In this document: one piece after another, positions 20,276-39,163 of the stretch
How the letters are laid out: each line of letters starts with the position of its first letter
Numbering within the stretch: position 1 is the stretch's first letter
NCBI GenBank assembly: GCA_947857085.1
Contig: CANUDF010000007.1
Coordinates: 1 to 39,163 of the forward strand
Origin: Candidatus Gastranaerophilales bacterium
Lineage (GTDB): Bacteria; Cyanobacteriota; Vampirovibrionia; Gastranaerophilales; Gastranaerophilaceae
Reading direction: 5' to 3'
DNA: 39,163 nucleotides
Notes under the pieces: generated by a model
Databases searched by the model: none
What the model was told of the DNA's origin: nothing
The model's input: only the letters and a program-made list of their open reading frames with translations
Position numbers and translations under genes: made by a program

Positions 20276-20890
20276 CTATTTGTTTTCTTTAGTTATAACT
20301 TTGTCAATCAAGCCGTATTCTAAAGCTTCTTGAGCAGATAAAAAGTGGTCTCGTTCGCAGTCTTCTTTTACTTTTTCATAAGGCTGGCCGGAATTTTCTG
20401 CCATAATACTAATTAACATATCTTTCATTCTTAAGATTTCTTTTGCTTCAATTTCAATATCGGTAGCTTGTCCTTTAGCACCGCCTAAAGGCTGGTGTAT
20501 CATAACTCTTGCATTTGGTAATGCCATTCTTTTGCCCTTGGCTCCTGAACATAATAAAAAAGCACCCATTGATGCGGCATCACCAAGACAAATTGTAGAT
20601 ACATCAGATTTTATTAGCTGCATAGTATCATAAATTGCCATTCCGGCAGTAATTACACCGCCCGGGCTATTTATATAAAGCATAATGTCTTTTTCCGAGT
20701 TTTCGCTATCTAATAATAATAATTGTGCAACTATGGAATTTGCAACTTCGTCATCAATTTCTGTTCCTAAAAAAATAATTCTTTCTCTTAATAATCTTGA
20801 GAAAATATCAAAAGAACGTTCGCCTCTTGATGATGCTTCTATAACTGTAGGGACATAGCCCATAATTTTTAAATAAGTTTCCTGATCCAT
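20276..20890 (-). CDS. clpP: ATP-dependent Clp protease proteolytic subunit
   Basis: ClpP is the serine-protease barrel that degrades substrates unfolded by ClpX/ClpA/ClpC. The catalytic triad is Ser107 ([11 protein letters not shown]), His132 ([11 protein letters not shown]) and Asp181 ([19 protein letters not shown]). [16 protein letters not shown] and [20 protein letters not shown] complete the fold; 204 residues is typical. AGGAG precedes the ATG, and an extended -10 promoter lies ~25 nt upstream. clpX is not adjacent. Confidence 0.98.
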
Positions 20891-29903: not shown

Positions 29904-31370
29904 TTAATCCTCCTTAATTTTAAATGAAATTTTAATTCCCAGTAGATTTATTTTAATTCTCTTTTTTTTATTTTTAATCCTTAATTGTGCAAATGAGAAT
30001 AAATCTTGATTACATAATATATATTGTGGCTCAAAATTTTTGATGGAATGTTTTTGGGGACACGTATCATAAAGATATTTTAAATTTTTCTGCCAGATTT
30101 CATATGAACCGCATTCATTAAATGCTTTTTGGCAGCTCTTTATATTTCGTGTTCGTAATTCTTCCGAGCTTAATAAAGCTTTTAACTTTTTAATTAATAT
30201 TTTTTTATTTTTACAATATGCATCACTTTTATATAGATAATCAGTCAGTTGGCAGGTTGATAATAATGGTCTTGAATAGGTAATTGCATCTATCATCCCT
30301 GTTCCGCCGCCTTCGGGATACGAGTCTAAAATAACATCAGAAGCAATAATGTATGTCAGCAATTCTTCAAACTGAACGGAATCCTTTCTTATTAATTGAT
30401 TCTTAAATTGTTTTTGATATTCTGTCCAGGATGGTGATATTTGGGGATTTGGTCCTATTCCTATGCAAATTGTGTTTTTATCAGTCTTTAGTACTGGGAT
30501 AACAAAGTTTAAAAAATCGAAGTTATCAAATGGTTTAAACTTGTTCTCATTACCATAAGTTAAAATTATCTTTTTATCTTCAGGCAGGTTTAATTTTTTT
30601 CTGGCTTCTGTTTTGCTTATTTCTAATTTTGTGCAAGTTTGTTTATTAGCGGGTATGCCTAATAATACAGCTTTAGTAATCCCTCTTTTTTTATTTCTTA
30701 CTTCTGACAAATTATCTTGTATTTGTGCCGTAATGTCTGATATACTAACACCGAACCAGAAGCGGTGATCTGCATGGTTATAGAAGATAACCGGTCTTTT
30801 GAATTCTTTATTTCCAAATGCCAGTATAGGGATAACATCATCCATATGTACATGCAGAATTATATGCTCAAAACTTGAAGCAATTTTTCTAAGTTCCAGC
30901 CCCTTTTCTATATAAGATTTGTCAGGAGCTATCTTATATATATTTCCATGTTTTTCTTTTACGGAACTTTCTAATTGCTCGGGTAATTCTCCTTGTTTAT
31001 CGTATCCGGTAAAAATTAGAGAATGCTTTTCATTTGCAGGTGACTGCTCAATCCATCTTTCCACAACACGTGTATGACCGCCGTAGTTATAAGCTAGTGA
31101 CATTACATGCAGGAATGTATGTTTTTCGTAATCAGCTTCTAATGAACCGAGAGTATGATTTTGTGAAATTTTAAGAAGTTCATTTTCTATAACAGAAGAT
31201 GCAAAATGCCCGGAAAACCAGTAACTTGCAAAACCACCTGCTTTTTTTGCCAAGTCGCATTTTTCTTCCTCTGTGCAGGCATTTTTAACAGAAATTTCCA
31301 TTTCTTCAAATATTTTTTTGTTTTTTTTAATACCTTTTATATATTTTTTTAATGACCGATCTATTTTCAT
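29904..31370 (-). CDS. GT-B-type glycosyltransferase of the glycan operon
   Basis: The 488 residues have an N-terminal extension (~80 residues), then HVMSLAYNYGGHTRVVERWI, which resembles the glycine-rich acceptor loop of GT-B enzymes, HVHMDDVIPILAF, and KKIILTYGNENKFKP with IASDVILDSYPEGGGTGMIDAITYSRPLL, resembling the C-terminal donor-binding region of GT4/GT1-like enzymes. The basic C-terminus (LRIKNKKKRIKINLLGIKISFKIK) is a tail often seen in polysaccharide-locus proteins and may touch the membrane. It overlaps the upstream gene by ATGA. Sugar donor and acceptor cannot be read from sequence. Confidence 0.75.
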   Translation of the reverse strand: MKIDRSLKKYIKGIKKNKKIFEEMEISVKNACTEEEKCDLAKKAGGFASYWFSGHFASSVIENELLKISQNHTLGSLEADYEKHTFLHVMSLAYNYGGHTRVVERWIEQSPANEKHSLIFTGYDKQGELPEQLESSVKEKHGNIYKIAPDKSYIEKGLELRKIASSFEHIILHVHMDDVIPILAFGNKEFKRPVIFYNHADHRFWFGVSISDITAQIQDNLSEVRNKKRGITKAVLLGIPANKQTCTKLEISKTEARKKLNLPEDKKIILTYGNENKFKPFDNFDFLNFVIPVLKTDKNTICIGIGPNPQISPSWTEYQKQFKNQLIRKDSVQFEELLTYIIASDVILDSYPEGGGTGMIDAITYSRPLLSTCQLTDYLYKSDAYCKNKKILIKKLKALLSSEELRTRNIKSCQKAFNECGSYEIWQKNLKYLYDTCPQKHSIKNFEPQYILCNQDLFSFAQLRIKNKKKRIKINLLGIKISFKIKED

Positions 31371-32335
31371 AAAATTTCTTCCTTTTGGATTAATAAGTCT
31401 ATTGCATTTATAAATTCTTCAATTTTTATGTCCTGAATTTTATCTGCAATTATATGTTTAAATTTTTTATTGTTCAAATCAAGTGTTCCCTTATGCATAG
31501 GTGAAAAACATGCCCCCCCCCCTCCTTGTTGGAGACCCATGTGATAAACAGATGTATTAGGTGTAATAATAAATTTTGCGTTTCTTATCAGAGCCGGAAG
31601 TTCGTAAGTTAAGAATTTACAGCACCCGTTAATTATATATTTTTTGTATTTTTCGTCAAGTTTGCTATAAACTTCATTATACAAGCCTAAATCTTTATCC
31701 ATTCCTAACAATAAAATTTTTATATTCAATTTATCTACAATATGTTTTACGGAAGCTTTTATTTGCTGACAGTTAAACAGTCCACTTGCAAAACCACCGA
31801 GAGTGATTAAAACATATTCTTCATCAGGCATTTTATTTGCAGGATGAACAGGAAGTGAGTGTTCAAAAATTTCGGGAACTTTACAGATATTGCTTATAAA
31901 CAGGTTTGAACGTTCTCTGTAAAATAATTCTAATTCAGGGTCTGTATCTTTAATATCTATTACCTGACCATCAGGCTTTAATTTTACATTATTTGCTATT
32001 CCTGACCAGGGACTGTATTTCAAGAAATAGTCTATTTTTAAAATTTTTAAAGGCATAATTTCTGAAAAATTAAGTTTATTTAAACTTGGGTTATCAATAG
32101 GAATAAATATATCAACATAATCCTTATCATTTTTTAGGGCAAAATCAAACCATCTTTGTGTAACGGCCAGTATGATTTTATATTTTCCGAGCTTCGTATC
32201 ATTTTTAAAAAGTCTCAATGCATTCCTTATCCAGAGATAATCTCCCAGACCGGAGGATGCATCAAGTAACAAAATCTTTTTACAGGTTAATCTGTAGTAT
32301 ATGCATTTTAGAAAGATTTTTAAGTTAATTTTCAT
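31367..32335 (-). CDS. GT9/heptosyltransferase-like glycosyltransferase with an internal poly-G tract
   Basis: ILLLDASSGLGDYLWIRNALRLFK at the N-terminus and EYVLITLGGFASGLFNCQQIKASVKHIVDKLNIKILLLG with LIRNAKFIITPNTSVYHMGLQ fit the two Rossmann-like halves of GT9 (ADP-heptose transferase-type) enzymes. A run of ten G (31513-31522) encodes GGGG directly after NTSVYHMGLQQ; at this place GT9 enzymes normally have a conserved loop (as in HLAAALGTP). A one-base change in the tract would truncate the last ~50 residues, so expression could be phase-variable. 322 residues. The sugar is unknown. Confidence 0.75.
   Translation of the reverse strand: MKINLKIFLKCIYYRLTCKKILLLDASSGLGDYLWIRNALRLFKNDTKLGKYKIILAVTQRWFDFALKNDKDYVDIFIPIDNPSLNKLNFSEIMPLKILKIDYFLKYSPWSGIANNVKLKPDGQVIDIKDTDPELELFYRERSNLFISNICKVPEIFEHSLPVHPANKMPDEEYVLITLGGFASGLFNCQQIKASVKHIVDKLNIKILLLGMDKDLGLYNEVYSKLDEKYKKYIINGCCKFLTYELPALIRNAKFIITPNTSVYHMGLQQGGGGACFSPMHKGTLDLNNKKFKHIIADKIQDIKIEEFINAIDLLIQKEEIL
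31513..31522 (-). repeat. Poly-G tract (10 G on the coding strand) inside the GT9-like gene
   Basis: Exactly ten C on the plus strand preceded by TG. It lies within an open reading frame and is followed on the coding strand by CATGTTTTTCACC, similar in position and shape to the CATATTTGTAAACC after the tract at 39110-39119. Confidence 0.9.
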
Positions 32336-36426: not shown

Positions 36427-37164
36427 TTAATTTTTTATTCTGCAATTTACAAAAATTTCTGATCCATTTTTAGGAAAATATTCTGTAAGTTTGTTGAGTC
36501 CGTCTAATAATTCTGTACTTAATATATCAGAATTCATGCATGAAAGCATTTTGGCGTTATTAAATACTTTCATAAAGTAACTGCCCTCTTCAAAACTTGA
36601 AAAACCTTGGTCCAAACAATATTTTTTAAGCTTGTCTAAATTGTATGTATGATGTCTTTGATAGTTTTGGGCTGTTTTAGATAAAGAATCAACACTTTTG
36701 ATTAATCCTGCTTCCTTTGCCCATAATAAATGGAAAGAATTTTCGTTCGGAACATTTATATGGATAATTGTATTTGGATTCGATAAAGATTTAGTGATTT
36801 GCATTAATATATCCGGATTGATTAACTCATGAATAAGTGAAGAAATTATTATGAAATCAAAAGTTTTATCCTTAAGTTTATCATATGAGTTTTCAGCAAA
36901 ATCATTTATCACGGTTATTTTATTGTTATAAAATTCAGATTTGCAAATAGTTTCGCAAAATTCTTTTGATGGTTCCACTACAGTAAATTCATCATAGTCA
37001 TGATAAAATTCAAAAATAGAACTCGTACCACAGCCTATTTCAAGAATTTTCACCGGCTTGTAAGTATTTAAAATTTCAAGAACTTTTTTCCTGCGATAAT
37101 AAACTGCTACTTTTTCAAAATCATCGTTTAGATAATCTCTTGTATATTTTGTTATATCTCTCAT
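36427..37164 (-). CDS. SAM-dependent methyltransferase
   Basis: A class I Rossmann methyltransferase: VKILEIGCGTSSIFEFY (SAM motif I), EFTVVEPSKEFCE (acidic motif II), DKTFDFIIISSLIHELINPDILMQ (motif IV), and a helical C-terminal cap (AKEAGLIKSVDSLSKTAQNYQRHHTYNL). 245 residues. The start ATG overlaps the upstream stop (TAATG). In this locus it likely O- or N-methylates a sugar or its acyl group; the acceptor cannot be inferred further. Confidence 0.88.
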   Translation of the reverse strand: MRDITKYTRDYLNDDFEKVAVYYRRKKVLEILNTYKPVKILEIGCGTSSIFEFYHDYDEFTVVEPSKEFCETICKSEFYNNKITVINDFAENSYDKLKDKTFDFIIISSLIHELINPDILMQITKSLSNPNTIIHINVPNENSFHLLWAKEAGLIKSVDSLSKTAQNYQRHHTYNLDKLKKYCLDQGFSSFEEGSYFMKVFNNAKMLSCMNSDILSTELLDGLNKLTEYFPKNGSEIFVNCRIKN

Positions 37165-37691
37165 TAGATTTCCTTTCTAATATTATGTAATAATCTTGCA
37201 GGTACACCCGCATATGTTGAATAAGGTTCCGTATCATGTAATACAACTGCACCAGCACCTATTACACATCCTTTTTTAATTGTAACACCTGGAAAAATTG
37301 TAACATTAGCCCCAATCCAAACATCATCTTCGATTATTATTGGACCTGTTTTAATTAATTTAGTTTTAACATATTCTAAATTTTGAAGTAATTGGGAATT
37401 GATAGGACATGCATCAGAAATAACAGTTAATCCCGGAGCTATAGTAACATTGTTACCTATAAAGACAGCAGGTTTATTGGAACCATCGCTAGCATGAATT
37501 AAACCCAGATTTGAATATGTGTTTTCACCCATAATAATGCCAAGCTTTTTCAAATATATTTTACGGATTCTTGCATCAGGATAATAGTATGCAATAGCTT
37601 TGGAAAATCTTGAAGGCATTTTATCTTCATTATTTTCAAGAAAATTAAATATAAACTTGTCCAAAAATTCTAATAAACTTTTAATAATCAT
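37164..37691 (-). CDS. Hexapeptide-repeat (left-handed beta-helix) acyltransferase
   Basis: The C-terminal ~110 residues have isoleucine-rich hexapeptide turns (VFIGNNVTIAPGLTVIS, GPIIIEDDVWIGANVTIFPGVTIKKGCVIGAGAVV) and the YSTYAGVPARLLHNI ending of the maltose/galactoside O-acetyltransferase family, which acts with acetyl-CoA. The N-terminal ~60 residues (FLDKFIFNFLEN..., FSKAIAYYYPDARIRKIYLKKLGI) are helical. 175 residues. It probably O-acetylates a sugar in the glycan, or supplies the N-acetyl group of the 3-amino sugar as FdtC-like enzymes do. Confidence 0.88.
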   Translation of the reverse strand: MIIKSLLEFLDKFIFNFLENNEDKMPSRFSKAIAYYYPDARIRKIYLKKLGIIMGENTYSNLGLIHASDGSNKPAVFIGNNVTIAPGLTVISDACPINSQLLQNLEYVKTKLIKTGPIIIEDDVWIGANVTIFPGVTIKKGCVIGAGAVVLHDTEPYSTYAGVPARLLHNIRKEI

Positions 37692-37712: not shown

Positions 37713-37775
37713 TTATGCTGCTTTAGCTAGCGGAGTGAGTGTAAAGTTGCCCCCCCCCCATCTCTCAGAAGTAGA
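37713..37775 (-). repeat. G10 element, copy a (forms the 3' end of the formyltransferase gene)
   Basis: On the coding strand: TCTACTTCTG, a short AG-rich link, ten G (37750-37759), CAACTTTACACTCACTCC, and a GCAGCATAA end. It encodes STSERWGGG..., ending PLAKAA and stop. Copy b at 39076-39134 has the same order of parts. Confidence 0.75.
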
Positions 37776-38672
37776 GAATACAGGCATCTCAGCCTGTATT
37801 AATCTGTTACCAATTTTGAATTCATCTGCAATAGAAACTGGTGTCCCATTTTTTGTTATACTGTTAATTTCTATTATGTTATCAGCTGTTTTAACCCACA
37901 TTTTATTGTCTATAATATTTACGACAGCTCCGGCTATTCCATAATAATCGTCACATTCCGGTACTAAATTCATATCTGTTATTTCATAAATATTGTTTTT
38001 AAATTCAAAGAAAATTCCTGTACCATAAGGAGAGCCCATGACTCTATAAAGATTATATAAATATTTTGTTGTAATATTCCAGTTTTTGATTAAACCGTCA
38101 TTTTTTCTTAATTTCATACAGCATAGATATTTTTTATTTTTTTGAGATTCTGGTAAAATTTTTCCATTAATGATATCTTGTAAAATATCAGGTAACTTAT
38201 CACAAGCTTGTTTCCGGAGTTTTTTTATTATATCTCCGTATTTTTCATTAGGTGCAACCTTTTCAATAAATCTGTAATAAATATCGCCTCCGTCAAATTC
38301 TTCAGTTGCCTCGTGTAGTGTGTATCCTACTTCATCTTCATTATTTATGATTGCCCAAACATTTGCATTAAATCCACGCCATTTAGGCAAAATCCCGGAA
38401 TGTATATTTAAACAAAGAGTATTCTGAAAATAATGTGTTGGAATTATTTTTGAAAAACTTAATATAAGGCAAATATCCACTTCCAATTTTATAATATCTT
38501 CAAACTTTAATTCCTTGATATTATTATCACATAAAAAGGATTTTTGTTTTAGCGCAATGTCAGGTGACGAATAATCTATAACTACACCAATAATAGAAAT
38601 ATTTTTGCATTTAATAAGTGATGCTGCAATATCCAAATTATTTGTATTACCTATAATAACTAGTTTAATCAT
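37713..38672 (-). CDS. Sugar N-formyltransferase (methionyl-tRNA formyltransferase-like fold)
   Basis: The formyltransferase triad is visible: Asn89 and His91 in LCLNIHSGILPKWRG and Asp127 in EEFDGGDI, all in a PurN/Fmt-type N-terminal domain. With FdtA- and FdtB-like proteins this indicates N10-formyl-THF-dependent formylation of a dTDP-amino sugar (such as Qui3NFo or Fuc3NFo). The last ~20 residues, STSERWGGG...TPLAKAA, do not belong to the family; they are encoded by the G10 element at 37713-37775 and look like an appended tail. 319 residues. The start overlaps the upstream FdtA-like gene by 8 nt. Confidence 0.85.
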   Translation of the reverse strand: MIKLVIIGNTNNLDIAASLIKCKNISIIGVVIDYSSPDIALKQKSFLCDNNIKELKFEDIIKLEVDICLILSFSKIIPTHYFQNTLCLNIHSGILPKWRGFNANVWAIINNEDEVGYTLHEATEEFDGGDIYYRFIEKVAPNEKYGDIIKKLRKQACDKLPDILQDIINGKILPESQKNKKYLCCMKLRKNDGLIKNWNITTKYLYNLYRVMGSPYGTGIFFEFKNNIYEITDMNLVPECDDYYGIAGAVVNIIDNKMWVKTADNIIEINSITKNGTPVSIADEFKIGNRLIQAEMPVFSTSERWGGGNFTLTPLAKAA

Positions 38673-39066
38673 TTTTTATGCTCCCCAAAAATTTTTGGTA
38701 ATCTCTTATATATTCTTTTTCGTTATAGTGTTCACTTGCAAGAACCATAAGTTTGCAGCCATAAGAAAAATGTCTCATTTCCCGCCACATATTTTTGCCT
38801 ATATATAAGCCTATATCAGGCCGGTTAAGCCATACTTCTTCTCTTTTTTCTCCATCATCAAGAACAAATTGGCACGAACCGTCCATTGCAACTATAATTT
38901 GTTCAAGATTTTTATGAGCATGTTTCCCCCTTTCAAAATCAGGAATTGTATCATATATATAATAAACTCGTTTTATATCAAACGGAATATTTTTATTGCC
39001 TTCGAGTGAAATGAGTTTACCTCTTTCATCTCCAAATACTTTCATATTAATTAATTTGTAATTCAT
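38665..39066 (-). CDS. FdtA/QdtA-like dTDP-4-oxo-6-deoxyglucose 3,4-ketoisomerase (WxcM-like cupin)
   Basis: This cupin moves the keto group of dTDP-4-keto-6-deoxyglucose from C4 to C3, giving the substrate for the aminotransferase at 33285. FGDERGKLISLEGNKNIPFDIKRVYYIYDT, RGKHAHKNLEQIIVAMDGS (the His-x-His near the active site), FVLDDGEKREEVWLNRPDIGLYIGKNMWREM and VLASEHYNEKEYIRDY are typical. 133 residues. FdtA (6-deoxy-galacto product) and QdtA (gluco product) cannot be told apart reliably by eye. GAGG precedes the ATG. Confidence 0.93.
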   Translation of the reverse strand: MNYKLINMKVFGDERGKLISLEGNKNIPFDIKRVYYIYDTIPDFERGKHAHKNLEQIIVAMDGSCQFVLDDGEKREEVWLNRPDIGLYIGKNMWREMRHFSYGCKLMVLASEHYNEKEYIRDYQKFLGSIKND

Positions 39067-39075
39067 AAAACCTCA

Positions 39076-39134
39076 CTATGCAGCCTTAGGCAGGAGGTTT
39101 ACAAATATGCCCCCCCCCCTATCCCAGAAGTAGA
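39076..39134 (-). repeat. G10 element, copy b
   Basis: On the coding strand: TCTACTTCTG, GGATA, ten G (39110-39119), CATATTTGTAAACCTCC, then GCCTAAGGCTGCATAG. It shares the 10-mer, the tract length, the downstream CA-x-x-TTT and the GC-x-GCATA[A/G] end with copy a. Confidence 0.75.
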
Positions 39135-39163
39135 TATAACAGTGCTTTTAGCGCTTGCCATTT
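39099..39163 (-). CDS. 3' end of a gene entering from the right edge, with a poly-G tail
   Basis: Only the last ~20 codons are in the window. In the frame that matches copy a of the G10 element, the coding strand reads ASAKSTVISTSGIGGGAYL and then TAA. With eleven G instead of ten the frame would read on as ...GIFVNLLPKAA to TAG at 39076, resembling the PLAKAA end of the formyltransferase. The frame choice rests on this similarity alone. Confidence 0.35.
   Translation of the reverse strand, partial: MASAKSTVISTSGIGGGAYL

Follow-up and report, generated by a model that had tools for sequence, protein, structure and literature searches.

Poly-G tracts at the 3' ends of two genes in a Gastranaerophilales surface-polysaccharide operon: candidates for C-terminal phase variation

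Poly-G tracts located at the 5' side of genes, such as that of pilC in Neisseria, mediate translational phase variation, in which the protein is turned on or off.

A 2010 study of Helicobacter canadensis described C-terminal phase variation (PMC2823697). In this bacterium, HCAN_0643 encodes a 317-aa formyltransferase, is placed in a glycan cluster and carries G11 at its 3' end, with lengths from G8 to G14 among the reads; according to the same study, Fmt-like proteins end in largely unstructured residues (PMC2823697). C-terminal phase-variable genes were later reported in the gonococcus, Neisseria gonorrhoeae (PMC5320596). An initial annotation of the DNA analysed here regarded a repeat that switches its own frame at gene ends as unusual; 3' poly-G switching is already on record in these two organisms (PMC2823697, PMC5320596).

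The window, i.e. the whole stretch of DNA that was analysed (39,163 nucleotides), is the entire contig C7 of a 1.75-Mb Gastranaerophilales genome in 88 contigs. The NusA of this genome shares up to 96% identity with proteins recorded under Candidatus Gastranaerophilales, which places it in that order. It contains two copies, a and b, of a short element with a G10 tract. Quite probably, both are 3'-end poly-G contingency tracts that permit C-terminal phase variation of two genes belonging to the same surface-polysaccharide operon. The likeness to HCAN_0643 lies in a poly-G of at least 10 at the 3' end of a formyltransferase gene of similar length in a glycan cluster, where slippage alters the tail and not the core (PMC2823697). 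On the other hand, H. canadensis belongs to another phylum, copy b affects an FdtA gene, and the length variation of H. canadensis was seen in reads (G8-G14), whereas here it is just a one-G difference between contigs. The gonococcal genes have in common with copies a and b a 3' homopolymer tract and three alternative C-termini, the length differing between strains in the gonococcus; they differ in kind and have shorter tracts, and one of them forms a fusion with the gene behind it, a feature absent from both copies (PMC5320596). A literature search of incomplete coverage found no paper on phase variation in the Gastranaerophilales. The slippage mechanism is shared with the 5' poly-G systems, which are matched in this genome by the prepilin leaders and by a third tract of the operon; those systems flip the protein on and off, whereas copies a and b keep the core intact. 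C-terminal phase variation would thus be extended to gut Gastranaerophilales, non-photosynthetic relatives of cyanobacteria.

The operon and its two tract-bearing gene ends

Copies a and b lie 1.3 kb apart in a polysaccharide operon on the minus strand. By family matches, the operon members are a nucleotidyl transferase, a dTDP-glucose 4,6-dehydratase, a DegT-type aminotransferase, an RgpF-like protein, a methyltransferase, a hexapeptide acetyltransferase, FdtA and a formyltransferase. Judging from these families, the gene set would fit the synthesis of N-acylated amino sugars. The features are the following:

31513-31522, minus strand: G10 tract, the third in the operon, within the ORF 31367-32335 (tract scan and frame reading).
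37164-37691, minus strand: hexapeptide acetyltransferase, the gene following copy a (family match).
37713-38672, minus strand: formyltransferase gene, 319 aa as assembled (G10), whose 3' end is copy a (Formyl_trans_N and Formyl_trans_C).
37713-37776, minus strand: copy a, additional tail STSERWGGGNFTLTPLAKAA and stop (ORF reading; missing from the orthologue of genome G013).
37750-37759, minus strand: tract of copy a, G10; tails at other lengths ...QLYTHSAS or ...ATLHSLR (frame reading).
37777-37800, minus strand: perfect 9-bp inverted repeat AATACAGGC-TGAGAT-GCCTGTATT, immediately before copy a (sequence).
38665-39066, minus strand: FdtA-like gene, second member of a tandem pair, without tail (PF05523 and alignment).
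39076-39163, minus strand: copy b, 3' end of the first FdtA-like gene, which continues on contig C45 (3-470, minus strand; contig-end overlap).
39110-39119, minus strand: tract of copy b, G10 in the window (tail ...GGGAYL) and G11 in C45 (tail ...GGGGIFVNLLPKAA; both contigs compared).

The top NCBIfam match of the formyltransferase is fmt, under the cut-off, and the scan gave no named relatives of this protein. Runs of at least eight G in the window are far over chance (nine overlapping matches versus 0.12 expected). At the tract at 31513-31522, alternative lengths cut a 322-aa protein to 280-287 aa; this tract, in a glycosyltransferase-like ORF, is a conventional one whose position suits phase variation by truncation, unlike copies a and b.

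The elements described for the two copies were recovered at the positions first proposed. The shared string TCTACTTCTG occupies 37766-37775 and 39125-39134 on the minus strand, the G10 tracts occupy 37750-37759 and 39110-39119, and downstream of the tracts CAACTTT (copy a) or CATATTT (copy b) is followed by GCAGCATAA or GCTGCATAG, respectively. The placement of both copies at gene boundaries was likewise correct. When the flanks are aligned outward from the tract, with the G tract omitted, the two copies score 18. Shuffled flanks reached a maximum of 12-14 against all other tracts of the genome, taken from the genome stretches surrounding tracts, and a score of 18 appeared in 0 of 3000 pairwise shuffles. 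The likeness is short yet beyond chance, and the copies probably share their origin via local duplication or conversion inside the operon. The inverted repeat before copy a forms a hairpin in the predicted fold; over the whole stretch at copies a and b, the predicted RNA fold was no better than that of shuffled sequences.

In copy a, the ORF ends with PVFSTSERWGGGNFTLTPLAKAA and the tract is located at residue 306 of 319, giving a protein of 314-319 aa across all frames. The tract of copy b (G10 or G11) is placed about 12 residues from the C-terminal end and allows three tails, depending on the frame. The enzyme core is complete in every frame, and just the 3-11 residues after the glycines differ. 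Both genes therefore carry what characterizes C-terminal phase variation, a homopolymer (mostly of at least 10 G) near the 3' end of the reading frame whose length shifts the last residues without stopping the protein. Slippage at the poly-G would gain or lose one G, and the ribosome would then complete the unchanged core with one of three short tails. The tail, in turn, may change the behaviour of the enzyme through its stability, contacts or specificity. A change of tract length would hence alter the tails and leave the enzymes on. The tracts, the three frames, the tail-free orthologues and the one-G difference between contigs of one locus are direct observations. All frames retain the catalytic domain, a point against the tails mattering, and any effect of the tail is putative. 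By its sequence features, the case belongs to C-terminal phase variation, a switch type known from other bacteria and new to this group. Depending on the frame, the gap to the next gene measures 21-35 nt after copy a and 9-32 nt after copy b. Since these gaps vary only within such ranges, control of the next gene through the stop-to-start distance is possible, not compelling.

Tract length and tails across contigs and relatives

The window ends 29 bases beyond copy b because contig C7 stops there. The first 85 bases of C45 are identical to the last 84 of the window, except that G11 stands in place of G10. The FdtA-like ORF of C45 crosses the tract and reads STSGIGGGGIFVNLLPKA to the contig edge, and the window gives the final Ala and the stop. 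The initial annotation had predicted which tail one extra G would give to copy b; this tail was found in C45, where G11 puts the FdtA-like gene in frame with STSGIGGGGIFVNLLPKAA. The same pair of contigs supports the proposed ability of the frame to switch, as one locus reads G10 in C7 and G11 in C45. The first FdtA-like gene (C45:3-470, minus strand) is directly upstream of the FdtA gene at 38665-39066. We infer that C7 and C45 join into one locus, because the overlap agrees with the gene order of G013 (FdtA preceded by a glycosyltransferase similar to the C45 one and followed by the formyltransferase) and with the tandem FdtA pairs also present in G133 and G186.

A second overlapping contig pair, C25/C36, differs by one G at its tract (G11 versus G12). 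Resting on these contig differences, a length variation of the tract in the population appears to be indicated, and the G10/G11 difference may mirror living subpopulations; one-G differences between contigs might be stutter or assembly error. Numerous contigs (C3, C13, C15, C25, C31, C36, C44, C45, C52, C57, C69, C75, C76 and others) end at a G tract or at most 200 bases from one, and the draft assembly thus breaks at variable or repeated tracts.

The tails had been proposed to be foreign to their protein families, and the relatives agree. The G013 formyltransferase (40% identical) stops 28 residues short of the protein in the window, the G013 FdtA stops soon after the conserved RDY motif, and 27 of 29 loci of FdtA relatives have no G/C tract. 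The two remaining loci are those of G186, where a separate G9 occupies the last codons at the 3' end of the FdtA1 orthologue (138, 143 or 154 aa, depending on the frame), and of G157, with G10 in the middle of the gene. Consequently, the same gene acquired tracts at differing places in separate lineages. In G029, G003 and G186, tracts occur in successive polysaccharide genes and several fall in the last tenth of the gene, although no firm statistic is drawn since two of these loci were picked for having tails. The tails at near-3'-end tracts of the polysaccharide genes of G003 and G029 are unrelated to those of copies a and b, and the exact a/b tails occur in one genome only. The recurrence in the same sugar-enzyme families among Gastranaerophilales makes a role of the tail testable. 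The polysaccharide locus on G029:C18 (L335, 1-20000, and L336) has G/C tracts in at least eight genes, including methyltransferases, a DegT-like protein, a FemAB-like protein and a GT gene.

Prepilin leaders and other readings of the tails

The genome under study (G000) contains about 99 prepilin genes with the N-methylation motif in 1.75 Mb. At least 63 of them have a G or C tract of at least eight in the leader, downstream of a start codon that has a Shine-Dalgarno-like site and ahead of FTLAEV, and in these leaders the frame from tract to motif is always open. As assembled, and depending on our own start-codon rule, 54 of the 63 leaders are out of frame and 9 in frame, the offset being the same in 44 of 63. 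Examples are the stretches L187, L188, L041 and L174 (in C53, C55, C37 and C38). The set has the appearance of a very large phase-variable pilin repertoire, a more striking observation than the tails at copies a and b. A set of this size in a little-studied group suggests surface variation as a main commensal strategy. The leaders are mosaic in G000 and in relatives (e.g. L077, L080, L086), with stretches like AEPRQHIRHWSK inserted at a duplicated FTLAEV motif and with CHCE...SQSH repeats; this pattern suggests that recombination may take place at the FTLAEV site.

The tails might be recycled prepilin leader segments that run from the start-proximal G tract to the prepilin-peptidase site; a copy of such a segment at the 3' end of a sugar gene would have turned an N-terminal switch into a C-terminal one. 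Such an origin, proposed here tentatively, is compatible with C-terminal phase variation and both can be true together. Similarity to the leader class actatcactactttgctagca-Gn-cagtagcttaacctcc extends across both flanks of the tract, with sum p values of 0.001 for copy b and 0.009 for copy a (uncorrected for class choice), but this class is partly defined by a string that the copies share with it; a second leader class has no resemblance to their flanks. A leader of C37 matches copy b in register (VNHPPKG|FTLAE versus VNLLPKAA-stop) with a score of 13 against a null maximum of 12, and several leaders of the genome end with KAA right before FTLAEV. However, the left flank of copy b is read in a frame other than that of the leader, copy a by itself is not significant against all tracts, and there is no prepilin remnant beyond either stop: in both copies the stop comes directly after KAA, in place of the FTLAEV motif that follows in a prepilin. 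Hits of early prepilin queries on copy a were excluded as circular, the queries having contained letters of copy a. As the matches between leaders and tails are short, their common origin is rather doubtful. It is equally speculative, and on the unlikely side, that the poly-G leader of Gastranaerophilaceae prepilins acts as a portable module, copied to the 3' ends of polysaccharide genes and giving switchable C-terminal tails. If true, one short sequence would play two parts, switching some genes on or off from their start and changing the tail of others at their end.

An unlikely alternative is that the tracts are neutral relics, tolerated where the harm is small, and that the tails have no function. 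The core kept in every frame and the largely unstructured last residues of Fmt-like proteins (PMC2823697) would agree with this, but 3'-end tracts recur with differing sequences in the same gene kinds of relatives, a recurrence better explained by selection or biased formation than by one relic. It is improbable that the tails are phase-variable degrons, in which a Lys-Ala-Ala end, similar to the ssrA tag and read in one frame only, would let slippage set the protein half-life through ClpXP. The tails of both copies do end with KAA in one frame only, the genome's tmRNA tag ends with Ala-Ala and a ClpP gene is found at 20276-20890. Nevertheless, an ssrA-like degron is weak, since the tag is AENNVIKADFSRAYALAA, ending with LAA (ALAA) rather than with the KAA of the tails (AKAA, PKAA). 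A search of 383 family genomes for at least eight G followed by Lys-Ala-Ala-stop gave one more in-frame case, in G003, with an otherwise unrelated tail, and an out-of-frame match in G125; roughly that number is expected by chance, and the tails of G186 and G029 end otherwise. As for the first proposal, a mobile or recombinogenic repeat dispersed at the ends of unrelated genes is very improbable and was rejected on copy number: two mutually related copies exist, yet both lie in one operon, the 1.75-Mb genome has no third DNA copy and the search of the 383 family genomes gave no shared tail.

In favour of C-terminal phase variation at the two genes, tracts of at least nine G are common in this family and rare in other families of the order: per genome, they number 11-114 elsewhere in the genus, 0-111 across the remaining family sample and 0-6 in the other families. 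Prepilin matches give the same contrast between the family and the other families of the order. A G10 tract is also located midway in a long repetitive ORF of more than 900 aa, open at the stretch edge (L193, G000:C62:3335), which probably encodes a surface protein.
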